The notes under the pieces are model-generated. The model did no database searches and was not told the origin of the DNA. It saw only the letters and a program-made list of their open reading frames with translations. Below, piece by piece: positions 455-38,432 of a stretch of 43,729 nucleotides of DNA. Origin of the DNA: Longimicrobium sp. (GTDB lineage Bacteria > Gemmatimonadota > Gemmatimonadetes > Longimicrobiales > Longimicrobiaceae). The position numbers and the translations under genes are program-made. The first letter of the stretch is position 1. Each line of letters starts with the position of its first letter. The stretch lies in contig DASVWD010000046.1 of assembly GCA_036389795.1 (NCBI GenBank), positions 1-43,729 of the forward strand, given 5' to 3'.

Positions 455-1894
455 ATGGCAAGCTTCCAGGCACTCCCCGGCTTCCGGGACTTCTACCCGG
501 AGGACCTCGCGGTCCGCGCGTACATCTTCGGCGTGTGGCGCGACGTGGCGCGGCGGTACGGCTTCCAGGAGTACGACGGGCCGCCGCTGGAGCCGCTCGA
601 GCTGTACACCGAGAAGTCGGGGCCCGAGATCGTCCAGCAGCTCTACAACTTCACCGACAAGGGAGGGCGCGAGGTGGCGCTGCGCCCCGAGATGACGCCC
701 ACGCTGGCCCGCATGGCCGGCGCGCGCGCCGGGGGCCTGCGCAAGCCGATCAAGTGGTTCTCGCTCCCCCAGCTCTTCCGCTACGAGCGGCAGCAGCGCG
801 GGCGGCTGCGCGAGCACTTCCAGCTCAACCTGGACATCATCGGCGAGGACGACGTCTCGGCCGACGCGGAGCTGCTGGCGGCGGCCATCGACATCCTGCG
901 CGGCTACGGGCTCTCCGAGAAGGACTTCGTGGCCCGCGTCTCCGACCGCCGCCTGCTGCGCGCGCTCCTGCTGCACGCGGGCGTCCCCGAGGACCGGCTC
1001 ACGGTCGTCTACAACATCGTCGACAAGCTGGAGCGCGAGACGCGCGAGGCGCTCTCCAGGCGGCTGACCGACGAGGCGGGGCTCGGCGCGGAGGTGGCCG
1101 GCGCGGTGCTCGACGTCTTCCGCCACAAGGACTTCGAGGCCCTGAAGGCGGCCTACTTCGGGTCGGCGGACAAAGACGGGTTCTGGATCGAGATCGGCGA
1201 CGACGGGGATGGCGGGGACGCCCTCGGCCTCTCGTTCCCCGCCGAGCTGGACTTCGAGGACGAAGGCGAGCTGGAGATCCCCGAACGCAGCGAGGCAGAC
1301 GTCCGGATCATGGGCGAGCTGGTCGAGGCGGTCAACCGGATGGAAGCCTACTTCGGCCACCTGCGCGCGATGGGGCTGGGAGACTTCGTGCGCTTCGACC
1401 TGTCGGTGGTGCGCGGGCTGGCGTACTACACGGGGATCGTCTTCGAGCTGTTCGACGTGGCGGGCGAGCTGCGCGCCATCTGCGGCGGCGGGCGCTACGA
1501 CAACCTGCTGAAGACCGTCTCCGGCGTGGACCTCCCCGCGCTCGGCTTCGGGATGGGCGACGTGGTGCTGAAGGAGCTGCTGGCCGACCGCGGCCTGCTC
1601 CCGGCCGCGAAGCACGCGCTCGACTACTACCTGGTGGCGGTGACGCCCGAGCAGCGCGACGCGCTCCTGGGCCTGGCGCACGCGCTGCGCGACGCGGGCA
1701 GGTCGGTGGAGTACGCGCTCAGGCACCAGGGCGTCGGCAAGCAGTTCAAGAACGCCTCCGCGCTCGGCGCCCGCCGCGTGGTGGTCCTGGGCCCCGACGA
1801 GGTGGCCGAGGGGGTGGCGCAGGTGAAGGACATGGAGACGGGCGAGGAGCGCCGCGTGCCGCTCCTGGAGCTGGTGGCGGCGCCGGGGGCGTAA
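455..1894 (+). CDS. hisS: Histidine--tRNA ligase
   Basis: Charges tRNA-His with histidine in the cytoplasm. The 479-aa protein has the class II synthetase core: motif 2 FRYERQQRGRLREHF, the histidine-site motif RGLAYYTG (Arg320 kept), and GGGRYDN. A C-terminal anticodon-binding domain ending VVVLGPDEVAEG makes the regulatory paralogue HisZ unlikely. The usual Asp of RGLDYY is Ala323 here, and the segment after motif 2 reads NLDIIGEDD; both suggest a divergent HisRS subgroup. ATG 455 is chosen because homology starts at MASFQALPGFRDF; the frame stays open upstream to 218 but that stretch is repeat sequence. No clear Shine-Dalgarno. It stands alone downstream of the heptamer element. Confidence 0.95.
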   Translation: MASFQALPGFRDFYPEDLAVRAYIFGVWRDVARRYGFQEYDGPPLEPLELYTEKSGPEIVQQLYNFTDKGGREVALRPEMTPTLARMAGARAGGLRKPIKWFSLPQLFRYERQQRGRLREHFQLNLDIIGEDDVSADAELLAAAIDILRGYGLSEKDFVARVSDRRLLRALLLHAGVPEDRLTVVYNIVDKLERETREALSRRLTDEAGLGAEVAGAVLDVFRHKDFEALKAAYFGSADKDGFWIEIGDDGDGGDALGLSFPAELDFEDEGELEIPERSEADVRIMGELVEAVNRMEAYFGHLRAMGLGDFVRFDLSVVRGLAYYTGIVFELFDVAGELRAICGGGRYDNLLKTVSGVDLPALGFGMGDVVLKELLADRGLLPAAKHALDYYLVAVTPEQRDALLGLAHALRDAGRSVEYALRHQGVGKQFKNASALGARRVVVLGPDEVAEGVAQVKDMETGEERRVPLLELVAAPGA

Positions 1895-1904
1895 ATCCGC
1901 GCGG

Positions 1905-1998
1905 ACGCCGCCCGGTGGTGCCCCCTCCCCCGCGCGGCCTCGGCTGCTCGTTCCTCGCAGCCAGAGGCGCGCTCCCCTCCCCCGCTTCGCGGTAGAGG
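1905..1998. repeat. Left arm of inverted repeat flanking the DUF559 gene
   Basis: About 90 bp whose reverse complement recurs at 2405-2505 with only a few mismatches and single-base indels. The shared core includes CGGTGGTGCCCCCTCCCC and, further in, CGGCTGCTCGTTCCTCGCAG. The core has its own small hairpin (GGCTGC / GCAGCC). Confidence 0.85.
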
Positions 1999-2032
1999 GG
2001 TGAACATATCGCACGCTCGATTACCGTGGACG

Positions 2033-2404
2033 ATGCGAGCAAGATCTCCGGAGCTGGCGGAGCGGGCGAGGCAGCTGCGGCGCGAGGCGACACCGGCGGA
2101 GGAGGTGCTCTGGCAGGCGCTGCGGCGCGGGCAGCTCAACGGGCTGCACTTCCGCCGGCAGCACGCGATCGACCGGTTCATCCTCGACTTCTACTGCCCG
2201 CGCTACCGGCTGTGTGTCGAAGTGGATGGCGCGGTGCACGAAGGTGACGACCAGCGGGCGCGTGACGCCGAGCGCACGGAGCTGCTCGCCGCGCGCGGGA
2301 TCACCGTGCTCCGCTTCACCAACAAGGACGTCCTTTCGGACCTCCCGCGAGTCCTGAGGGCGATCACCGCTGCCGCCACGCCGCAAATCTTCCCGGACGA
2401 GTAG
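2033..2404 (+). CDS. DUF559 family VSR/restriction-endonuclease-like protein
   Basis: A 123-aa protein with the DUF559 fold signature of the very-short-patch-repair/PD-(D/E)XK endonuclease group. It starts RSPELAERARQLRREATPAEE, then has the active-site stretch FILDFYC (Asp52) and CVEVDGAVH (Glu63, Asp65, His69). Family members are thought to cut or nick DNA; the target is unknown. ATG 2033 fits family starts; GTG 2000 in the same frame is the alternative and adds 11 residues partly encoded by the flanking repeat. The stop codon abuts the right arm of a ~90-bp inverted repeat, so the gene sits alone inside a ~600-bp repeat-bounded unit. The function is inferred from the family only. Confidence 0.85.
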   Translation: MRARSPELAERARQLRREATPAEEVLWQALRRGQLNGLHFRRQHAIDRFILDFYCPRYRLCVEVDGAVHEGDDQRARDAERTELLAARGITVLRFTNKDVLSDLPRVLRAITAAATPQIFPDE

Positions 2405-2505
2405 TTCCCCCTCTCCCGCGCAGCGGGGGAGGGGAGCGCGCCCTCTGGCTGCGAGGAACGAGCAGCCGAGGGTCGCGCGGGGGAGGGGGCACCACCGGCG
2501 GCGCC
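2405..2505. repeat. Right arm of inverted repeat flanking the DUF559 gene
   Basis: Reverse-complement partner of 1905-1998. It begins directly after the DUF559 stop codon. A fragment with the same C-rich/G-rich hairpin pattern also appears near 26766-26809. Confidence 0.85.
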
Positions 2506-2544
2506 CGCACTGAAGCCCGTGACACGCACCGAATCGGCGTCACC

Positions 2545-4005
2545 ATGCCCGCTGCATCCGAATCCACCACCCTCTGCTACCTGACCGCTACGGAGCTCGC
2601 CGCGCGCATCCGCGACGGCGAGCTCTCGTCCGAGGAGGTGGTGCGGGCGCACCTGGAGCGGATCGCGCGGCTGAATCCCCCGCTCAACGCGGTGGTCGAC
2701 CTGCACGCGGAAGCAGCGCTGGCGCGCTCGCGCGAGGCGGACGCGGCGCTCGCGCGCGGCGAGTGCCGGGGGCGGCTGCACGGGGTGCCCGTCACCATCA
2801 AGGACGTGTGGGACGTGGCGGGGATGCGCACCACCTTCGGCTACCCGCCGCTGCGCCGCCACGTGGGCCGGGAAGACGCGTTCGCGGTGTCCCGCCTGCG
2901 CGAGGCCGGCGCGGTGGTGCTGGGGATGACCAACGCGCCGCTCGGCTCGTACGACTGGCAGTGCTGGAACCCGCTGTACGGGCGCACGAACAACCCGTGG
3001 GACCCCGCGCGCACGCCGGGCGGGAGCAGCGGCGGGAGCGCGGCGGCGGTGGCGGCCGGCTTCTCGGCGCTGGAGCTGGGGAGCGACGCGGCGGGCTCCA
3101 TCCGCGTCCCCACCCACTTCTGCGGGGCGATCGGGATGAAGCCCACGGAGACGCGCGTCTCGGGGCGCGGCCACGGCAACTTCCCCGGCATCTCCTACTC
3201 GCTCCGCCACATCTGCTCGTACGGCCCCATCGCCCGCTCCGTGGCCGACCTGGAGCTGGCGATGACGCTGCTCACCGCCCCCGACCCGCGCTTCCCCGAC
3301 GCGCCCCCGGTGCCGTTCGCGCTCCAGCCGCCGCGCGAGCCCGCGAGCCTGCGGGTCGCCTGGACGGACTCCTTCGGCGGCTACCCGGTGTCGGCGGAGA
3401 CGGCAGAGGCGGTGCGCGGCGCGGCGGCGAAGCTGGAGGCGGCCGGGGCGCGCGTGGAGCGGGCGAATCCGGACATCGACGGCGCCGACGCGCTGGTGAC
3501 GTGGGGAGAGATCAACGGCTTCGAGACGGGGATGGCGCTGCCGGCGTACGCGCGCGTGCCGATGCGGCTGGGGACGGAGCTGCGCTTCGGGAGGGGGCCG
3601 TTCTCGCGCGGGCTGCGGCGGGGGCTGGCGCTGCTGCCCCACCGCTACTTCCGCGCGCTCGACCGCCGGGACCGCCACTCCGCGGCGATGGAGGCGCTGC
3701 TGGCGGACTACGACGCGTGGCTCTGCCCGGTGGCCGCCGTCCCGGCGATCACGCACCGGCGCACGGGCGCGCCGGTGGCGGTGGACGGGCGGGCGACGTC
3801 GTACTCGATGGCGCTGGGCGCCTGGGCGTCGCTGCTGGCGATGACCGGCAACCCCGTCGTCGTCCTTCCCGCCGCCCGCTCCGTCGACGGCCTCCCGATC
3901 GGCATCCAGGTGGTCGGCCGCCGCTGGGACGACGCCGGCGTCCTCGCCGTCGCCCGTGCTGTCGAGGCGCTCACCGGCGGCTTCTCTCCGCCAGGCGTGC
4001 GCTGA
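2545..4005 (+). CDS. Amidase signature family hydrolase
   Basis: A 486-aa enzyme of the amidase-signature family, which hydrolyses carboxamides with a Ser-cisSer-Lys triad. Lys86 (in VTIKDVWD), Ser161 (in GGSSGGSAAAVA) and the nucleophile Ser185 (in GSDAAGSIRVP) are present, and their spacing (75 and 24 residues) is the family's. The length fits free-standing amidases. It is not obviously GatA: no gatB or gatC lies nearby, and the substrate cannot be read from the sequence. ATG 2545 agrees with homology (LTATELAARIRDGELSS). It is a single gene between the DUF559 repeat unit and the low-GC accessory pair. Confidence 0.92.
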   Translation: MPAASESTTLCYLTATELAARIRDGELSSEEVVRAHLERIARLNPPLNAVVDLHAEAALARSREADAALARGECRGRLHGVPVTIKDVWDVAGMRTTFGYPPLRRHVGREDAFAVSRLREAGAVVLGMTNAPLGSYDWQCWNPLYGRTNNPWDPARTPGGSSGGSAAAVAAGFSALELGSDAAGSIRVPTHFCGAIGMKPTETRVSGRGHGNFPGISYSLRHICSYGPIARSVADLELAMTLLTAPDPRFPDAPPVPFALQPPREPASLRVAWTDSFGGYPVSAETAEAVRGAAAKLEAAGARVERANPDIDGADALVTWGEINGFETGMALPAYARVPMRLGTELRFGRGPFSRGLRRGLALLPHRYFRALDRRDRHSAAMEALLADYDAWLCPVAAVPAITHRRTGAPVAVDGRATSYSMALGAWASLLAMTGNPVVVLPAARSVDGLPIGIQVVGRRWDDAGVLAVARAVEALTGGFSPPGVR

Positions 4006-4181
4006 CCCCAACACATCGATTCTGGATCAGCGCGCCGGACCCTCTGCTGGGTCGCGGTCCGACCGTGTGACGGAAGAAGAGTGGAAACATGGCTGAATAG
4101 GTGGAGCCTGCGATCATCTCCTCGGTTATCGGTGAGTCAGTTCACGGTCGATACATGACCAGTACGACGAGGACTGGCAAA

Positions 4182-4445
4182 ATGGCGAAGTGCCTTGAAC
4201 ACGACTGCGAAAACGAGGCGGAACAGGGACTTTTCTGTCCGAAGCACGTGCCTCCTCCGACTTTCGGTCTGGGTTACCTCCGGCCCGGCGGTGGAGGCGC
4301 CGGCGGTGGAGCCACCCGCGGCGGTGGTGCAGGCGGAACGACCGGTGGCGGCCTGGGCGGTGGCGGAGGTGCTGGCGGTGGTGGCGGAGGTGCTGGCGGT
4401 GGTGGCGGATTGGGCGGTGGCGGAGGTGCTGGTGGCGGGGGGTGA
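4182..4445 (+). CDS. Small zinc-binding protein with poly-glycine tail
   Basis: A predicted 87-aa protein of unknown function. The N-terminus has a compact metal-binding pattern, C4-x4-C9-x9-C19-x2-H22 (with EQGLFCPKH), like short zinc fingers of the CxxxxC...GLCxxH kind. Residues ~36-87 are almost only Gly with some Ala, Leu and Thr, encoded by ~21-bp imperfect tandem units at about 4352-4441. ATG 4182 is preceded by CGAGGA at a good distance; in-frame starts at 4155 and 4101 lack one. The stop lies just before the membrane-protein gene, so the two look co-transcribed. Base composition from ~4040 to ~5090 is clearly lower in GC than both neighbours, suggesting acquisition. Expression is not certain. 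Confidence 0.6.
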   Translation: MAKCLEHDCENEAEQGLFCPKHVPPPTFGLGYLRPGGGGAGGGATRGGGAGGTTGGGLGGGGGAGGGGGGAGGGGGLGGGGGAGGGG

Positions 4446-4498
4446 TCGGATGGTGGAGAGGTGCCGGCGGGCACAGTCGATTCATGCAAAGGTGTCAC

Positions 4499-5080
4499 AT
4501 GCTGATTACGTCGCTGCCCGTGAGGAATGAGGAAGAGGATGTCACCATTGATGATGTTGCCCTCTTGAAGCTCGCCGTTGAAGCCCACTCCGAAACATAC
4601 CGTGATTTGACACAGAGTTGGCGCAGTCTTGAAACGAAAGCACAAGGCACTGCGGCAATCTCGGGAATTTTTTTGGCCGGGGCGTTTGCGTTCGCACGCG
4701 AAATCCCGGAAGGAGCACGTGCGGGTACGACAGAACTGCTGATCGTCACAGTCCTGTTATTAGTCCTATCGGCAGGCTTTTCATTGTGGGTTCAGCGGAT
4801 CCGGCTCATGCCCACCGCTCCCTCGTCACTTCTTGCCCCACAATGGATCGCTGCAATTCGAAGCCAGGTACCGCGGGCGGAGTGGCCCGAGCGCCTGGTG
4901 GGCTTCTACGAGGAATATGATCGGAACTGGGGTACCACGAATGCCGCTCTGGTGAATATACTGGGCAAGAAAGCCCGTTCACTGGTAGTCGCTCAGATCC
5001 TCTTGTTAGCTGCCGCTGGATGTGTAGTCGGAGTTACGATCCTGGCGGTCCTCTCTCAAACGCCGGTGGTGCCGCAATGA
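4499..5080 (+). CDS. Three-helix membrane protein, SLATT-like layout
   Basis: A 193-aa integral membrane protein I cannot assign to a named family. A helical soluble start (SETYRDLTQSWRSLETKAQG) leads into TM1 (~50-67) and TM2 (~79-98), then a ~60-residue soluble loop (AEWPERLVGFYEEYDRNWG) and TM3 (~161-186). The two closely spaced helices after a helical segment recall the SLATT-type pore domains of bacterial defence effectors, but that is resemblance in layout, not a family match. ATG 4499 has AAAGG six bases upstream; the frame is open back to GTG 4442. Codons such as TTA and GGA and the lower GC set it apart from its neighbours. It follows the poly-Gly gene and probably shares its transcript. 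Confidence 0.75.
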   Translation: MLITSLPVRNEEEDVTIDDVALLKLAVEAHSETYRDLTQSWRSLETKAQGTAAISGIFLAGAFAFAREIPEGARAGTTELLIVTVLLLVLSAGFSLWVQRIRLMPTAPSSLLAPQWIAAIRSQVPRAEWPERLVGFYEEYDRNWGTTNAALVNILGKKARSLVVAQILLLAAAGCVVGVTILAVLSQTPVVPQ

Positions 5081-5161
5081 TGACCTACCGGGTCACGAAG
5101 GCGTTTGCGAAGACATTTCTCCAGTGGAAAACCCGATGACGCTGCAGGTCCAAGCAGAGCC

Positions 5162-6208
5162 CTACCCCGTCGCCTCGCGCAGCTCGCCCAGCTTGGCCCA
5201 GCCGGCGCCGGCGTCGAGGGTGGCCTCGGCGGCGCGGATGCCGTCCACCAGCGAGCCGGCGCGGCCGGCGACGTAGATGGCGGCGCCGGCGTTCAGGACC
5301 ACGGCGGCGCGGGCGGCGCCGCCCATCTCCCCGCGCAGCACGTCTTCCACCTTGCGGGCGTTCTCGGCCCGCTCGCCGCCCTCCAGCCCGGCGGCGTCCA
5401 CGGGCTCCCACCCCAGCTCGGCCGCGGGATCGAAGGTATGCCGCGTCCACCGCCCGTCCGCCACCTCCAGCACCTCCGTCGTGCCGATCGGGCTCAGCTC
5501 GTCGAGCCCCGGCGCGCCGTGGACCACCAGGGCGCGCTCGTGCCCCAGCTCGGCCAGGGCGCCCGCGATCAGCTCCAGGAGCGCGGGGTCGGAGACGCCC
5601 ACCACCTGGCGGCGCGCGTGCGCGGGGTTGGTCACCGGGCCCAGCACGTTCATGATGGTGGGCATCCCCAGCTCGCGGCGGACGGGGCCCACGTGCTTCA
5701 TGGCCGGGTGGTGCAGCGGCGCGAACATGAACACGATGCCGCACCGCTCCAGCACGCGCGCCTCCTCCTCGGGCGAGAGCTCCAGCCGCACGCCGAGCGC
5801 CTCCAGCACGTCGGCGCTGCCGCAGCGCGAGGTGAAGGAGCGGTTGCCGTGCTTGGCCACCCGCACCCCCGCCCCGGCCGCCAGCAGCGCGGCGGCCGTG
5901 GAGATGTTGAAGGTCTGCACCGCGCCGCCGCCGGTGCCGCAGGTGTCCACCAGCCCCGCCGGGTCGGCCGGCACCGGGACCATCGCCTTGCGCAGGGCGC
6001 GCACGCCGCCGGCCACCTCCTGCGGCACCGCCCCGCGCACGCGGATCGCCACCAGGAGCGCGGCCATCTGCACCGGGGTGGCGCGCCCCTCCATCACCTC
6101 GGTGAACGCCGCCTCGGCCTCGGCGGCGGTGAGCGGGCGCAGCGCGGCCTGGCGGATCAGCTCCCCGAGGTCGGCCTCCACCGGGGCCGCGGCCTCCGCA
6201 GCGCTCAC
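5162..6208 (-). CDS. trpD: Anthranilate phosphoribosyltransferase
   Basis: Second step of tryptophan synthesis: transfers phosphoribose from PRPP to anthranilate. The 348-aa protein has the family landmarks: the PRPP loop DTCGTGGGAVQTFNIST (91-95 and 101-104), KHGNRSFTSRCGSADVLEALG (119-139), and a metal-site region near DELSPIGTTE. The helical N-terminal dimer domain spans ~10-75. The start is GTG at 6208, overlapping the TGA of the upstream GAF gene (GTGA), so translation is probably coupled. No other trp gene is in the window. The downstream convergent gene ends at 5080. Confidence 0.93.
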   Translation of the reverse strand: MSAAEAAAPVEADLGELIRQAALRPLTAAEAEAAFTEVMEGRATPVQMAALLVAIRVRGAVPQEVAGGVRALRKAMVPVPADPAGLVDTCGTGGGAVQTFNISTAAALLAAGAGVRVAKHGNRSFTSRCGSADVLEALGVRLELSPEEEARVLERCGIVFMFAPLHHPAMKHVGPVRRELGMPTIMNVLGPVTNPAHARRQVVGVSDPALLELIAGALAELGHERALVVHGAPGLDELSPIGTTEVLEVADGRWTRHTFDPAAELGWEPVDAAGLEGGERAENARKVEDVLRGEMGGAARAAVVLNAGAAIYVAGRAGSLVDGIRAAEATLDAGAGWAKLGELREATG

Positions 6209-7440
6209 GCCGCCTGCCCGTCGAAGAGGCGCCCCTGCAGGCCGGCGTGGTCCACCAGGAGCCCCACGCAGAGGGCGACCAGGCGCAGCTGCTCCACCTC
6301 GTAGTCGTCCACCGTCCCCGCGCGGAAGTTGCTCAGGTTGAGGACTCCCAGGAGCTGCCCGCGGCAGAGGAGCGGGAGCGAGACGAAGGCGGGGCCGGTG
6401 TACCAGGCGTCGCGCATGAGCGGGTGGGTGACGCTCTCCTCGCTGTCGCGCACCACCAGCGCGGTGCGGCTGCTGGCCACGGCGCCCGAGATCCCCCGCC
6501 CCAGCGGCACGCGCACGCTGTCGCGCGCGATCACCGGCGGCAGCCCCACGGCGGCGCAGAGGCGCAGCTCGGGGCCGCCGTGGTGCTCGTCGATCAGCAG
6601 CAGCGAGCAGCGGTTGCCGCCGAACGATTCGGAGACGGTCTTCACGATCTCCTCGGCCAGCGCCTGGGGCGCCATCCCCGCCGCGTTCTTCTCCATCAGC
6701 TTGCGCAGCAGGTAGAGGACGCGCGTCTGGCGCTGGTGGCGGGCGGCGCGGCGGTCGATCTCGACGTGCGCCTCCATCAGCATCTCGGTGGCGCTGGCGG
6801 CGGCGTGCTCCAGCGCCGCCATCCGCGAGCGCAGCGACGCCAGCTCCTCGCGGGCCACGGCGGCCGAGCGCTCGCTCTCCTGCACCCGCTCCATCGCCGT
6901 CCCCGCGGCCAGCGCCCGCAGCGCCTCCTGGCGCGCCTCTTCGTCGCGGGCGCGCTCGCGCAGCAGCAGCGCGCGCGAGAGGCAGAGCTCCAGCACGTCG
7001 CCGCCGGCGTCCACCGAGTCCTCGGCGCGGCGCCCGGGAAGCATCCAGCGGCGCGGCTCGGCCACCACCAGCACGCCCAGCCAGCGGCCGTCGTGCGCCA
7101 CGGCGCGGGCGCGCACCCAGAAGCGCTCGGGCTCGAGCCCCGGGAGGAGGTCGCGCAGGCACCACGAGGGGGCGCTGTCCACCGGGCGCAGCGGCCGGTC
7201 GCCGCCGGCGTCGTCGGCCAGGAGGGCGTGCAGCCGCTCGGGCTCCAGCTCGATGGCGGCCTCCTCGATGTCGTGCCCGGTCTCGCCGGTGCTCCAGCGG
7301 TGCGCGAGGGTGCCCGTCTCGGCGTCGTACGAGGCGTAGGCCACGCGGCGCTCGCCCTTCGCGCCGGCCAGCACGGGGAGGAGGCGCTGGAGGACGGTCT
7401 CGGGGTCGACGGCGTCGTGGAGCCGGACGAACAGGTTCAT
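6205..7440 (-). CDS. GAF domain protein with central coiled coil
   Basis: A 411-aa cytoplasmic protein. Residues ~15-155 form a degenerate GAF-like N-terminal region, ~160-250 a Glu/Arg/Ala-rich coiled coil, and ~255-400 a clear GAF domain (LAEEIVKTVSESFGGNRCSL, VPLGRGISGAVASSRTALVV, GQLLGVLNLSN). GAF domains bind small ligands or sense redox or light; there is no kinase, cyclase or output domain, so it may act through partners. No bilin or haem residue stands out. ATG 7440 begins MNLFVRLHDAVDPE. Its last codon overlaps the trpD start, an odd pairing of a sensory protein with a biosynthetic enzyme. Confidence 0.85.
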   Translation of the reverse strand: MNLFVRLHDAVDPETVLQRLLPVLAGAKGERRVAYASYDAETGTLAHRWSTGETGHDIEEAAIELEPERLHALLADDAGGDRPLRPVDSAPSWCLRDLLPGLEPERFWVRARAVAHDGRWLGVLVVAEPRRWMLPGRRAEDSVDAGGDVLELCLSRALLLRERARDEEARQEALRALAAGTAMERVQESERSAAVAREELASLRSRMAALEHAAASATEMLMEAHVEIDRRAARHQRQTRVLYLLRKLMEKNAAGMAPQALAEEIVKTVSESFGGNRCSLLLIDEHHGGPELRLCAAVGLPPVIARDSVRVPLGRGISGAVASSRTALVVRDSEESVTHPLMRDAWYTGPAFVSLPLLCRGQLLGVLNLSNFRAGTVDDYEVEQLRLVALCVGLLVDHAGLQGRLFDGQAA

Positions 7441-32349: not shown

Positions 32350-34017
32350 TCAGTAGCCCAGGCTGTACTTGTCCGGGGGCGGGAGCCACTTCGGGCGGTC
32401 GAGGCCGAAGTGCTCCTCCAGCATCAGCTCGGCGGTCTGCAGCGCGCCCTCCACCCACCCCTGGTTGATGGAGTACGCCTCGCCGCAGACGAACACCTCC
32501 TCGCCGGGGACGGGCTGGCGGATCTTCGGCATGATCTCCCAGAACTTGAAGCCCGCCTTCCAGGCGTGCCACCCGCCGCCGTACGGGTCGTCGGACCAGT
32601 CGTGGTAGGCGGCGGCGTACGGCCTGGGGACGAACTCCAGCCCGTGCACCTCGCGCACCTGCGCCTGCGCGGCCTCCACCATCTGGCAGGTGACGGGGAA
32701 GCCGTTGACGGGCTTCGCCTCGCGCCCCGGGTTCCAGCGGTTGCGCTCGCCCAGGAAGGGGTCGCCCTCCTCCAGCGCCTTCCAGTACGGCACGCTCCCC
32801 AGGTCGTTGTAGCTCACCATCATCAGCGAGTTGTAGTTCTTAGGGTCGCTGTGGGGCTGCTCGCCCTCGGTCTGGAAGTAGAAGGTCTGCCGGAGCGGCA
32901 TGTCGGTGATGGAGCGCCCGGCCTGCAGCCCCAGCACGCGCCACCACGGGTACGGGTACGCCAGGAAGATCTTGAACGCCGCCTGGATGATCACCGCCTC
33001 CACCATCTCGCGCACCTCGCGGTCGCGCGCGAACGGCTCCCAGTTGATCAGCTCCAGCGAGCGCCGCGGCATGGCCAGCACCACCCGCTTGGCCACCACG
33101 CGGTGCGTGCGGGTGGCGCCCTGCTCGCGGCGGTCGCGCGACTTGCCCAGCTCGTTCGGCTCGGTCTCGGCGAAGAGGAGGGCGTACGACCCCTGCTCGT
33201 TGCGCCCCATCGAGTCCAGGCGCCGGTTCATGCGCACCTCGCCGCCGGCGGCCTGGAACTCGGCCGCCAGCGCGCGCGGGAGCGCCTCGTAGCCGTCCAC
33301 CAGCGTCTCGTACTTGACGCTGGGGCCGAACTCGAACACCGGGAGCGAGAGCACGGCGTTGGAGTTGGCCACGTTGGTGTAGTAGCCGCCGGCGTCGTCC
33401 ATGTACTGGTACGCCTCGCTGCTCAGCACCTCGTACAGCAGGTTCCAGAAGCCCAGCTTGTACAGCTTCTCGCCGTTCAGCACCTCCACCTCGTTCCACT
33501 CGTCCTGCGTGAGCTCGCCGGCGTTGGGCACCAGCGAGTCCATCACGTACTTCTGCAGCTGGTCGGGGGTCATCCCCTGCTCGGTGGGGTTCATCAGGTA
33601 CGGCACCAGCGCGGGGTCGGTGAGCTGCGAGGCGCGCAGGAGCCGGCGGCGCAGGTACATCAGGTTGTTGGAGCCGCCGGGGTCCTTCTCCGGACCCATG
33701 GGGAAGGGGCGGGTCTCCAGGCCCAGCTGCTCGATCAGCTCGCGCACGAAGGCCTGCGTCTTGGGGATGAAGCGCATCCCGCCCAGCTCGGCGTTCACGT
33801 GCGGCATCCCGGGGAGCTGGTCCGTGTACAGCCGCCCGCCGATGCGGTCGCTGTACTCGAAGAGCACCACGTTCAGCTCGGGCTTCTCCTGCTTGAGGCG
33901 CCACGCGGTGTAGGCGCCGCCCATCCCGCCGCCCACCACGGCCACGTCGACCGCTTCGGCGTCGGCCTGCTCGCGGGTGAAGGGAGAGAACATCTCGTGG
34001 ACCAGCGGACGGGTCAT
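32350..34017 (-). CDS. Flavin amine oxidase (amino acid/monoamine oxidase family)
   Basis: A 555-aa FAD enzyme. The N-terminal dinucleotide fold is VVGGGMGGAYTAWRL (27-41), followed by DRIGGRLYT (57-65) and ELGGMRFIP, all typical of the amine/L-amino acid oxidase family. The C-terminal FAD contact is VFVCGEAYSINQGWVEGALQTAE. It should oxidise an amine or amino acid to the imine, then keto acid or aldehyde, plus peroxide. No signal peptide. ATG 34017 has GGAGG six bases upstream. With the decarboxylase 219 bp downstream it could form a two-step amino acid to aldehyde route; tryptophan via indolepyruvate is one possibility. Confidence 0.88.
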   Translation of the reverse strand: MTRPLVHEMFSPFTREQADAEAVDVAVVGGGMGGAYTAWRLKQEKPELNVVLFEYSDRIGGRLYTDQLPGMPHVNAELGGMRFIPKTQAFVRELIEQLGLETRPFPMGPEKDPGGSNNLMYLRRRLLRASQLTDPALVPYLMNPTEQGMTPDQLQKYVMDSLVPNAGELTQDEWNEVEVLNGEKLYKLGFWNLLYEVLSSEAYQYMDDAGGYYTNVANSNAVLSLPVFEFGPSVKYETLVDGYEALPRALAAEFQAAGGEVRMNRRLDSMGRNEQGSYALLFAETEPNELGKSRDRREQGATRTHRVVAKRVVLAMPRRSLELINWEPFARDREVREMVEAVIIQAAFKIFLAYPYPWWRVLGLQAGRSITDMPLRQTFYFQTEGEQPHSDPKNYNSLMMVSYNDLGSVPYWKALEEGDPFLGERNRWNPGREAKPVNGFPVTCQMVEAAQAQVREVHGLEFVPRPYAAAYHDWSDDPYGGGWHAWKAGFKFWEIMPKIRQPVPGEEVFVCGEAYSINQGWVEGALQTAELMLEEHFGLDRPKWLPPPDKYSLGY

Positions 34018-34435
34018 GGGTGCCCTCCGGGCGGGGGATGGAGGTCGGCCCGCGCGAACGAGGTTGTTCGCGCGGTGTCTCCCGAAGTGCGGCTGGCGGG
34101 GGCGGAACTGCTACTCCCGACGGAGGCAGTTACGGGGAAAGACGACGGAGGGGCATCGTACTTCTCACGTCTTCCACTGTCAATGATCGTCGCGGAACGA
34201 AGTGGCTCCGAAAGGTGCCGCCGAGGCCGCCTCTGCCTGCGATGCAGTGCGGGCGCACCGGACTCCAGGGGCGCGAGGGCGAGCTTCGTCCCGCCCTGTA
34301 AGACAGAGTCGATTTCCACAAATGTTTGCTTGCCCGCGCGAACCCGGCTCCACATCATGAAGGTCCGCAGTTTGGCGGGAGGCGTGCGGTAACTTCAGCG
34401 CGCGATTGTTTTGATCGACGAAGGGGAGGGCGATC
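34018..34435. other. Divergent region between amine oxidase and TIR-like gene
   Basis: 418 bp with no credible gene; base composition is less GC-rich than the coding flanks, especially 34130-34420. It must hold the promoters of both divergent genes. A perfect 9-bp palindrome, CGCGCGAAC (34051-34059) with GTTCGCGCG (34066-34074), lies ~35 bases before the amine oxidase start and could be an operator or leader hairpin. Confidence 0.45.
34051..34074 (-). promoter_or_regulatory. Palindrome in the amine oxidase leader
   Basis: Perfect 9-bp inverted repeat CGCGCGAAC / GTTCGCGCG with a 6-base spacer, 34-57 bases upstream of the ATG. Candidate operator or 5'-leader hairpin; no regulator gene is adjacent. 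Confidence 0.35.
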
Positions 34436-35482
34436 ATGCTAACGCAGGAGACAGGGTTACAGGTTCCATCGGTTTTTCCGCCACCCAGGCGGCCGATCGA
34501 GGACTCGATCCTGGTCATTTTCTCAGTCGCGCAGACCGCGCCGGAGTACCTGCAGGCCGCCGAGAACGCCGTAAACACCTATGAGCGCCCGGACATCCGC
34601 GACGACCGTCCCCACGATCCCCGGCGGCTGGTACGCACACACGCGGAGGTGTTCGGGATTCCGGAGGGCGTGTCTCCCGGGCGCACCCTCAACACCGAGC
34701 TGGTGAAGGCGCTGAAACGGTGCGTGGGCGCCATCGCCTTCGTCGACGACCTGCGGCCCAACATTGCCTACGAGCTCGGCTTTTTCCACGGGAAAGGCGC
34801 CCCGGTCCTCCTGCTCACCTCCTGCTCGCCGGGCCGGTCCTGGCGCCAGATCTCGGACCTGGCCGGCGCCGCGACGGCGAAGTTCACGAGCAGCAACCTC
34901 CAGACGCTGATCCACAAGTACCTGGACCGCCTGTTCGCCGAGCTCGAAGACATCGCTCCGTGGCCCACGTATACGTTCCCCAAGCCGGGCCAGAACCTGC
35001 TCGCGAGTGACGAGATCGAGGTCAGGTGCGATGGATGCGAGATCGTCGAGGACGGCCCGTTCGGCCGGATGGTCCGGCTGTCGCGGTGGGAGAGCCCGCT
35101 GAACCTGTCGATCAACGGAAGCCTGTCTCCCCACGCACGGTTCAAGATCGCGGTGCGCAGCCCCAGCGAGGCGCACTACGCGGTCTACTTCGAGCTCGGG
35201 TTCCAGGACGCCCGCAAGAAGGAGCGCCAGGTGTGGCTGGGGCTGAGCTCCTGGCTCAAGCGTGGCGACTACCGCAACGACGAGCGCAACCTGCCCGTCG
35301 ACCCCGCGAACCGGCAGTGGCGGTACGTGACCGGCACCTTCGCCGACCTCCTGCGGCAGGCACGGCTTTCCCACGTGAAGAACGAAACGCTGAAGCGCGT
35401 CAGGCTCCGCCCCGGAGAGCCCCACAGCGCCGACGACTCGCCGGTGGAGTTCGGCTACCTCGAGATCGTCGGAGTGCTCTGA
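34436..35482 (+). CDS. TIR/nucleoside-deoxyribosyltransferase-like domain fused to a beta-rich domain
   Basis: A 348-aa cytoplasmic protein. Residues ~22-170 resemble the TIR-like and nucleoside 2-deoxyribosyltransferase group: ILVIFSVAQTAPEYL, a helix, then CVGAIAFVDDLRPNIAYELGFFHGKGAPVLLLT (96-128). The N-x-x-YELG pattern puts Glu113 where these families have the catalytic glutamate that attacks N-glycosidic bonds. Residues ~180-348 look like a beta sandwich (MVRLSRWESPLNLSINGS, HYAVYFELGFQD, GDYRNDERNLPVDPANRQWRYV), possibly for binding or oligomerisation. ATG 34436 has GGGGAGGG upstream. No neighbour of a known defence system. Activity on NAD or nucleotides is inference. Confidence 0.7.
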   Translation: MLTQETGLQVPSVFPPPRRPIEDSILVIFSVAQTAPEYLQAAENAVNTYERPDIRDDRPHDPRRLVRTHAEVFGIPEGVSPGRTLNTELVKALKRCVGAIAFVDDLRPNIAYELGFFHGKGAPVLLLTSCSPGRSWRQISDLAGAATAKFTSSNLQTLIHKYLDRLFAELEDIAPWPTYTFPKPGQNLLASDEIEVRCDGCEIVEDGPFGRMVRLSRWESPLNLSINGSLSPHARFKIAVRSPSEAHYAVYFELGFQDARKKERQVWLGLSSWLKRGDYRNDERNLPVDPANRQWRYVTGTFADLLRQARLSHVKNETLKRVRLRPGEPHSADDSPVEFGYLEIVGVL

Positions 35483-35564: not shown

Positions 35565-35831
35565 GGCGCATGGGGCGTGCAGCCCTGCCTCTGGCCGCCA
35601 GTCCACCGCGACACATCACGGCTTCCACGCGGACGCTCCCACCGCGCCCGCCGTCCGCACGCGGGCCACCGGACGTCACGCACCTCGGGTGGCGAAAGGA
35701 AGCGCGCACCCGCTACATTGACGGTGTGGTCGAACGATGAGGGAGTTTCGATCCTTCTACGAGCGAACCGCGCCCCCGCAGTACGCCCCCTGAGACGAGT
35801 CTCCCGCCCCACCAGCCCGCCGGCAGACCCA

Positions 35832-38432
35832 ATGGAAGCCAGCGACAGCAAGACGACGCGGCCTCCGGACGCACCTGCAAAGCCAGCTGCGTCCGATTCG
35901 AGGTCCAGGAAGTCGAAAGAAGCTGCCCCCAGACCTGCCGGCGGGCGCGGCCGCAGGGCCGTCCGCGCGCTCGGGCGCGGGGTGCGGCGGACAGCGCGCG
36001 TGGTCCTATGGCTCGTGCTGGCGGTGGCGCTGCTCACCGTGGTCACCACGGCGTGGGGGATCGCGCACACGCCGGTGATCGGGCCGGTGTCGGGGCCCAT
36101 CGTCAACGACGTCACGAAGCTGAACCCGGTGGAGGTGGCGCGGGTGATCGCCCCCACCAGCGAGGCCGAGATCGTGGCGGCGCTGCGCGGCACCACCGGC
36201 CCCGTCTCCATCGGCGGCGGGCGGTACAGCATGGGGGGGCAGACGGCCACCGAGGGCGCGCTGCAGATCGACATGCGCCGCTACAACCGCGTCGTCCGGC
36301 TCGACACCGCCGCCAAGACCCTCACCGTGCAGGCCGGCGCCACCTGGCGGCAGATCCAGGAGGCCATCGACCGGTACGGCCTCTCGGTGAAGGTGATGCA
36401 GTCGTACGGCAACTTCACCGTGGGCGGCTCGCTCTCGGTGAACGTGCACGGGCGCTACGCCGGGCTCGGCCCCATCATCTCCACCGTGCGGAGCTTCCGC
36501 ATCCTCCTGGCCGACGGCACGGCGCTCACCGCGTCGCCCACCGAGAACGCAGAGGTCTTCTACGGCGCCATCGGCGGGTACGGCGGGCTGGGGGTGATCA
36601 CCGAGGCCACGCTGGACCTGGCCGACAACGTGCGCGTGCGCCGCACCCGCACCACCATGCCCGTCGGCCGGTACGCCGCGTACTTCAGCCGCTCCGTGCG
36701 CGGCCGCCCGGACGTCGTCTTCCACAACGCCGACATCTACCCCAACGAGTACGACCGCGTGAGCGTGGTGACGTTCACGCGCACTAACGACCCCGTCACC
36801 GTCCCCGACCGCCTGATGCCGCGGCGCGAGAGCTACCCGACCAGCCGCTTCGGCACGCGCGTGGTCACCGGCTGGCCGGGGGGGAAGGAGATCCGCGAGC
36901 ACGTGCTGGACCCGCTGGCGTACCGCGGCGAGCACGTGGTGTGGCGCAACTACGAGGCGAGCTACGACGTGGCCGAGCTGGAGCCGGCCTCGCGGAAGAA
37001 GTACACCTACGTGCTGCAGGAGTACTTCATCCCCGTGGGCCGCTTCGACGAGTTCGTGCCGCGGATGAGGCGCATCTTCCGGCGCCACCGCGTGAACGTG
37101 GTGAACGTCTCCATCCGGCACGCCACGCCGGACCCGGGCTCGCTGCTGGCCTGGGCGGGGGAGGAGAAGTTCGCCTTCGTGGTCTACTACAAGCAGCGCA
37201 CCAGCCCCGAGGCCCGGCGCGAGGTGGCGGCGTGGACGCGCGAGATGTCCGACGCCGCCCTGGCCAGCGGCGGCAGCTGGTACCTGCCGTACCAGCCGCA
37301 CGCCACCCCCGAGCAGTTCCGGCGCGCCTACCCGCGCGCGGGCGAGTTCTTCGCGCTCAAGCGCCGGCTGGACCCCGGCAACCGCTTCCGCAACAAGCTG
37401 TGGGACCGCTACGACCCCGCGGGCCCGGCGCGGCTGGACGTGGGGACGCCGGAGCGGGCGGCGCTGGCGCGCGTGGAGGGGTACGCGCGGCCCGAGTCGC
37501 AGAGCTTCCTGGCCCACCCGGAGTGGTTCATCGTCTACAGCGCCGACGAGTACGCCGCGTGGACGAAGGACCGCCTCCCGCACGCCTTCCCCTACGCGCG
37601 CTCGATCGGGCAGTTCTGGCGCAACTGGGCGCAGGTGTCGCGCGCGTCGCGCCGCGAGAACCCCGGCAACGCGGGGTACGCGCTGATGCTGGGGGTGATC
37701 GGGACCAGCTTCTCGGTGGAGTACAGCATCAAGAACGCGTACGAGAACACCCTCGGCCGGCTGAGCGCCTGGACGGCCGGCGGGCGCATGACCGACGAGG
37801 ACCGCTTCGCGCACCAGGTGGCGGCGGACTACGGCCGCTTCATCCACACCATCCCCTGGTACCGCTACCCGTTCGGCGCGCAGCTCGGGCGCCTGTGGAG
37901 CGACGTGCCGCTCTGGGGGCCGCACCCGCTGCGCAAGTGGGAGCGGCGCCTGTCGCTCACGCTGGAGTACGCCGTCAAGGGCGCCTACGCGTGGATGCTG
38001 GGCGGCGCCACCGGGGCCGCGTACGCGCCCGAGGACCTCAGGATGGGCCTGGTGGTGTTCGGCGACACCGCGTCGCTGGCGCCGGGAGACAAGCGCGTGC
38101 TCGCGCGGCGCCCGCTGGGGCCCCGGCACGCGCTGCTCACCACGGAGCGCTACGACGCGTTCGGCGGCCTGCTGCGGGAGAGCGCCCGCCGCGGGGAGAC
38201 GACGCCGCTGGTGGAGATCGCGGGGAACGACGACATCGTGGTCACGGGGGTGGCGCCGCGGGAGTGGCGCTACGTGGGCCCCGACGCGGAGTTCCTGTAC
38301 GCGCTCCCGCTGGCCAGCGACGCGCGCCGCATCCGCCCCGTGCTGAAGGTGCGCACGCGCGACCTCCTCCCCTTCCTGCGGCGCATGGAGGCCGAGGGGC
38401 GGCTGGCGGTGGACCACGTCTACGACTACTGA
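35832..38432 (+). CDS. Membrane-anchored FAD-binding oxidoreductase with extra C-terminal domain
   Basis: An 866-aa protein. A basic, Ala/Pro-rich N-terminus precedes one TM helix (56-77), which probably anchors it with the enzyme outside the cytoplasm. Residues ~100-265 are an FAD-binding domain of the PCMH/vanillyl-alcohol-oxidase type: SIGGGRYSMGGQ (126-137), SYGNFTVGGSLSVNVHGRY (191-209), GAIGGYGGLGVITEATL. The substrate part continues to LDPGNRFRNKLWDRY (~516-530), as in sugar-lactone oxidases. The last ~330 residues (PEWFIVYSADEYAAWTKD onward) are not part of that family and I do not recognise them. ATG 35832 lacks a strong Shine-Dalgarno; the frame is open to 35577. Confidence 0.85.
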   Translation: MEASDSKTTRPPDAPAKPAASDSRSRKSKEAAPRPAGGRGRRAVRALGRGVRRTARVVLWLVLAVALLTVVTTAWGIAHTPVIGPVSGPIVNDVTKLNPVEVARVIAPTSEAEIVAALRGTTGPVSIGGGRYSMGGQTATEGALQIDMRRYNRVVRLDTAAKTLTVQAGATWRQIQEAIDRYGLSVKVMQSYGNFTVGGSLSVNVHGRYAGLGPIISTVRSFRILLADGTALTASPTENAEVFYGAIGGYGGLGVITEATLDLADNVRVRRTRTTMPVGRYAAYFSRSVRGRPDVVFHNADIYPNEYDRVSVVTFTRTNDPVTVPDRLMPRRESYPTSRFGTRVVTGWPGGKEIREHVLDPLAYRGEHVVWRNYEASYDVAELEPASRKKYTYVLQEYFIPVGRFDEFVPRMRRIFRRHRVNVVNVSIRHATPDPGSLLAWAGEEKFAFVVYYKQRTSPEARREVAAWTREMSDAALASGGSWYLPYQPHATPEQFRRAYPRAGEFFALKRRLDPGNRFRNKLWDRYDPAGPARLDVGTPERAALARVEGYARPESQSFLAHPEWFIVYSADEYAAWTKDRLPHAFPYARSIGQFWRNWAQVSRASRRENPGNAGYALMLGVIGTSFSVEYSIKNAYENTLGRLSAWTAGGRMTDEDRFAHQVAADYGRFIHTIPWYRYPFGAQLGRLWSDVPLWGPHPLRKWERRLSLTLEYAVKGAYAWMLGGATGAAYAPEDLRMGLVVFGDTASLAPGDKRVLARRPLGPRHALLTTERYDAFGGLLRESARRGETTPLVEIAGNDDIVVTGVAPREWRYVGPDAEFLYALPLASDARRIRPVLKVRTRDLLPFLRRMEAEGRLAVDHVYDY

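Follow-up and report, generated by a model that had tools for sequence, protein, structure and literature searches.

The analysed stretch of DNA, called the window below, spans 43,729 nucleotides of a Longimicrobium sp. contig. On its forward strand, positions 34436..35482 encode a 348-residue protein predicted to carry a TIR/DrHyd domain at its N-terminus and a jelly roll at its C-terminus. An ATG is the only possible start among the first 60 codons of this open reading frame, and a strong ribosome-binding site, AAGGGGAGGG (34421..34430, +), was read from the sequence about 6 nucleotides 5′ of it. The GC content at the three codon positions (0.66/0.45/0.89) follows a typical coding pattern. 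The good ribosome-binding site, the third-position GC content (GC3, 0.89) and the existence of a full-length relative in another phylum (38% identity) together establish that the open reading frame is a real gene. The gene occurs in a single copy in the genome.

The gene is flanked by an amine oxidase gene (32350-34017, −) and an FAD-linked oxidase gene (35577-38432, +). At a greater distance, the window encodes a TPP enzyme and an aldo-keto reductase and contains purine-synthesis genes. Rfam, tRNA and repeat scans gave nothing relevant at the locus. When the ten nearest open reading frames were compared with PADLOC, only spurious weak matches were obtained and none was credible as a defence gene; no CBASS, Pycsar or Thoeris partner (cyclase, ThsA or other) was recognised among them. 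The claim that the gene has no usual defence partner nearby therefore holds for these scanned neighbours. A match to the PADLOC ShosT model was discarded, since it falls on the phosphoribosyltransferase part of a neighbouring glutamine amidotransferase gene (PurF-like).

The N-terminal domain

Searches of the 348-residue protein against Pfam, NCBIfam and PADLOC gave no match above cut-off. Below the Pfam gathering cut-offs, residues 21-175 matched PF05014 (nucleoside deoxyribosyltransferase; E = 0.0069, 16.9 bits for a cut-off of 28.8) and PF10137 (CAP12/Pycsar TIR; E = 0.011, 16.2 bits for a cut-off of 24.7), the latter across the Glu motif. DUF4062 was absent from the Pfam matches up to an E-value of 1, and the PADLOC model PDLC00733 'Effector, TIR' did not match the protein even at an E-value of 10.

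A clearer assignment came from family profiles. A search of the phylum genomes with an alignment of four N-domain sequences revealed, in 31 genomes, a widespread domain with the pattern FVxMPF...RxD...NPNVxYELGxAHA...PFD, present in many fusions. Using hhalign, the N-domain pair made of our protein and its homologue matched this family with 97.2% probability (E = 3.5e-11), the alignment covering 47 columns in the region of the motif. PDLC00733 recognises family members with E-values of 3.4e-6 to 1e-10, and the best PDB match of the family profile is DNPH1/Rcl. The corresponding segment of our protein, PNIAYELGFFHGKGAPVLLL (residues 108-127; 34757..34816, +), forms an invariant core in the homologue. 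It had been described beforehand as the catalytic-Glu region of TIR-like enzymes; the hhalign match and the invariance of the motif across phyla bear this out. The glutamate, correctly numbered as residue 113 (34772..34774, +), lies within a PNxxYELG motif and is aligned with the Glu of the DNPH1 YELG motif. It is therefore predicted to be the catalytic acid. Across 25 aligned sequences, R51, P108, N109, Y112, E113 and D141 are invariant, with the reservation that R51 can be assigned to the RxD motif only doubtfully, since the predicted model has a strand at residues 67-75.

Some features depart from the canonical family. About 25-30 residues are inserted before the second main helix and the catalytic motif, and W..ISDLAG replaces the canonical PFD segment. 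DNPH1/Rcl, a 2′-deoxynucleoside 5′-phosphate N-hydrolase of the DrHyd superfamily (PF05014-like), has the YELG motif with its catalytic Glu in common with our protein, but lacks both this insertion and the 160-residue jelly-roll domain. Its second catalytic acid, Asp80, has no certain counterpart: in a gapless alignment Glu88 stands one position off, and this placement is uncertain.

A first AlphaFold2 model, computed from the two-sequence alignment, was discarded (pLDDT 41). Adding 23 N-domain relatives from viral contigs to this alignment gave a model with a mean pLDDT of 74, mostly 80-90 over the N-domain and weaker in its loops. The N-domain model matches DNPH1 (Z 13.8; rmsd 2.9 over 124 aligned residues, 12% identity), MilB (Z 12.6), the RPS4 TIR (Z 11.4) and the SfSTING TIR (7un8, Z 10.8). 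The presence of DNPH1, MilB, a plant TIR and the SfSTING TIR among the matches agrees with the TIR/NDT-related fold expected in the preliminary description. Generic Rossmannoid folds of the CheY type nevertheless reach a Z of about 12, just 1-2 units below the best matches, so that the fold alone is not decisive and the sequence profile decides the class. The predicted model also displays the arrangement expected of the DrHyd superfamily, a Rossmannoid fold with the Glu of a YExG motif after strand 3. The top Foldseek matches of the whole model, EF-Tu and SelB, have an rmsd of about 20 when both domains are superposed; they seem to be artefacts that arise because a Rossmannoid domain precedes a beta domain. 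Overall, hhalign, the AlphaFold2 model and the structural matches assign residues 21-175 (34496..34960, +) to the Rossmannoid TIR/nucleoside deoxyribosyltransferase ("DrHyd") class.

The predicted C-terminal jelly roll

Residues 187-348 (34994..35479, +) are predicted to form a beta-sandwich, with model strands between residues 195 and 347. Apart from a weak loop (275-291), most pLDDT values of this region are 70-86. Foldseek matched it to the carbohydrate-binding modules CBM30 (1wmx, E = 2.5e-4), CBM22 (4xup, E = 3e-4), CBM16 (2zey) and CBM11 (6r31), the last two both with an E-value of 1.5e-3. With VIA-align, a stretch of D-glucuronyl C5-epimerase (6hzz) matched residues 186-346 (Z 10.6). 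The likeness to the CBM jelly rolls is one of predicted fold, with about 10% identity. No sequence family was found for the domain, with no Pfam CBM match at E-values up to 1 and no significant PDB profile match, the sequence basis being two homologous sequences. Used alone as a query, the domain retrieved nothing further from the 395 genomes of the phylum.

Therefore, of the "unrecognised beta-rich domain" proposed earlier, the beta-rich character and the lack of a sequence family stand; the domain is not unrecognisable, since its model matches CBM-type jelly rolls. We predict a carbohydrate-binding-module-like jelly roll with medium confidence, because the domain was modelled only as part of the whole protein. 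Such a fold does not by itself imply carbohydrate binding.

Other matches of this domain were set aside. Those to neurotoxin chains (PDB, E = 0.24 and above) and to insecticidal Cry proteins (Foldseek) are probably explained by the beta-sandwich shape that these proteins share; nothing suggests kinship. A match on a Streptomyces plasmid (E = 0.1) was ascribed to chance, as the translated frame holds no intact protein.

Distribution and origin of the gene

The sole full-length relative found (L004:7989-8969) belongs to an Elusimicrobiota MAG, Candidatus Praeruminimicrobium purgamenti, and its 38% identity extends across both domains. As judged from these two sequences, the same two-domain architecture is maintained in both phyla. 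Within its own phylum the gene is present at full length in one genome out of 395; a second listed genome has a weak partial match, and the other sampled genomes of the genus, family and phylum have no full-length copy. Similarly, one of the 341 Elusimicrobiota genomes contains the full-length homologue, the second match there being a domain-only protein. Nothing was found in viral contigs with the 348-residue protein, its homologue or the C-domain as queries. A plasmid search gave only a Rhizobium SLOG-plus-DrHyd protein having the motif in common, and a phage search gave nothing beyond one match at E = 2.

The gene sits between two blocks of genes. Two congeners have conserved the left block and two others the right one, but no sampled congener was found with the blocks side by side. 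The GC content of the gene is 66.7%, as compared to 72.5% for the window, although a similarly low value (65.3%) was obtained for the intergenic stretch upstream. This position and lower GC content suggest that the locus gained it as a single gene. The homologue lies near a tRNA-Ser gene, among neighbours unrelated to those of the Longimicrobium gene. Read by eye, these neighbours have no connection with nucleotide metabolism and include no defence partner. No association with a defence island was found for either gene. Taken together, the position, the GC content and the different surroundings of the homologue suggest a mobile single-gene trait.

Proposed function and related proteins

The protein is a divergent, rare architecture inside the known TIR/DrHyd class, and its predicted nucleotide-cleaving domain is of a type employed in anti-phage cell suicide. 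Cleavage of N-glycosidic bonds is the defining activity of the TIR-DrHyd-SLOG class (PMC9503650). Two characterised systems provide analogies. DUF4062 (Swarozyc) proteins are TIR-like NADases with auxiliary sensor domains, for which a phage portal protein is the trigger (PMC13174449, preprint), and retron-Eco1, which has an NDT-like effector, acts via NAD+ hydrolysis (PMC12405507). By analogy with both, we tentatively favour, at somewhat less than even chances, a stand-alone conflict effector encoded by one gene, in which an NAD(P)+ or nucleotide N-glycosidase would be gated by the jelly-roll domain. The one-gene abortive-infection effector of the preliminary description is, on the same analogy, a reasonable and plausible proposal.

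According to this scheme, the two-domain protein would be cytosolic (no signal peptide was seen by eye) and would act without a partner. With Glu113, the N-domain would cleave NAD(P)+ or another nucleotide at its glycosidic bond. The jelly roll would serve as a sensor or oligomerisation module, and a ligand, possibly a phage-derived protein or glycan, would bring the catalytic domains together. Once assembled, these domains would deplete the nucleotide and stop the growth of the infected cell. That the protein is catalytic, acts on NAD+, is gated through its C-domain and responds to phage is inferred from the systems named above. Several observations count against the scheme: the closest solved relatives, DNPH1 and MilB, are nucleotide N-hydrolases and not NADases, no family cut-off is reached, metabolic genes surround the gene, generic Rossmannoid folds score nearly as well as the best matches, and the C-domain is known from two sequences and has low-confidence loops. 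A bolder version is doubtful; it would make the protein a member of a new, very rare single-gene defence family, transferred between distant phyla by itself, in which the jelly roll recognises a phage-derived ligand (capsid or tail protein, or glycan) and directly activates the divergent nucleotide-cleaving domain.

Comparison with known systems shows where the protein would stand. Like the DUF4062/Swarozyc proteins, it would be a stand-alone member of a TIR-like NADase class with a conserved Glu, a distant NDT resemblance and an auxiliary sensing domain. However, in the DUF4062 protein studied the auxiliary domain is carried on helical stalks, whereas a jelly roll is predicted here. The likeness to CAP12/Pycsar TIR effectors (PF10137; SfSTING TIR) consists of the sub-threshold Pfam match and the structural match to 7un8; however, our protein has no STING domain and no cyclase partner, and its C-domain is a predicted jelly roll. 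As for PDLC00733, it matches the relatives of the N-domain but not the protein itself, and no partner gene lies nearby.

Three other explanations were weighed against the gated effector. The protein may be a metabolic or house-cleaning enzyme, a DNPH1/MilB-like nucleotide N-hydrolase or deoxyribosyltransferase acting on modified (d)NMPs, with a jelly roll that is structural or used for oligomerisation. DNPH1 is indeed both the top structural match and the top profile match of the family, purine-biosynthesis genes lie within the same window, and the alignments would place Glu88 next to the position of Asp80. Such a role is nonetheless rather unlikely in view of the very sporadic distribution, of the homologue's neighbours, which show no link to nucleotide metabolism, and of the variable fusions (Mrr-type nuclease, guanylate-kinase-like) and matches to a defence-effector model seen in other members of the wider family.

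We consider it unlikely, too, that the protein makes a second messenger or is a catalytically dead nucleotide sensor, in either case passing a signal to an effector encoded at another place in the genome. The TIR-DrHyd-SLOG class does include inactive sensors as well as members that make messengers (PMC9503650), and both the altered PFD segment and the insertion before the catalytic motif would suit such a role. The invariance of the motif Glu and of its flanking PN..YE argues against it, as does the lack of a linked effector in the scanned neighbourhood or, by eye, beside the homologue. Finally, the CBM-like C-domain could target a polysaccharide in a glycan-related or cell-surface enzyme whose Rossmannoid N-domain has another activity. 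This is very improbable, since no signal peptide is evident, the sequence profile assigns the N-domain to the DrHyd/TIR class and no carbohydrate-enzyme neighbours were recognised at the locus.

TIR/DrHyd domains are plug-in killers whose trigger is set by the sensor; if the gated effector is the correct reading, a jelly-roll sensor would be a new input module. A one-gene system without a partner could be transferred directly to a laboratory strain for testing. The protein also shows that divergent members do not reach the thresholds of Pfam and PADLOC and are therefore overlooked by defence-system annotation.

Several related proteins were seen alongside. The same genome encodes two other DrHyd/TIR-like proteins. 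One is canonical (L117, 3473-4687, −, on G000:C285) and belongs to a cluster (1207-6957) that also comprises, by eye, ORFs resembling an integrase (1207-2520), a small helix-turn-helix protein (2517-2906) and a relaxase (4876-6957); the cluster looks like an integrative mobilisable element. The other (L118, 6787-7848, on G000:C48; ISPIG...NPNVMYELAVRHA) resembles a protein of a congener (L034 of G379). The Rhizobium plasmid protein (L005, 5476-6333, CP050566.1) combines a SLOG domain (LDcluster4) and a DrHyd/TIR domain that contains DGLRPNVLYEMGLAHGYGKP, and its gene lies near an annotated IS66 TnpB, a transposase and a restriction endonuclease. Among the fusions, one protein (L033, 1012-1821, G059) carries an Mrr-type restriction endonuclease domain with the DrHyd/TIR domain and matches the PADLOC TIR-effector and PDC-S02 models, and another (L028, 580-1824, G031) joins the domain to a guanylate-kinase-like domain. 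Four further proteins, three of prophage type on viral contigs (L063, L064, L065) and one in a genome (L027, G346), combine the same class of N-domain with beta-rich-looking C-domains of about 150-170 residues. These C-domains are unrelated by sequence to that of our protein (hhalign 0.1%); a TIR-like domain followed by a beta-sandwich may be a recurrent architecture.
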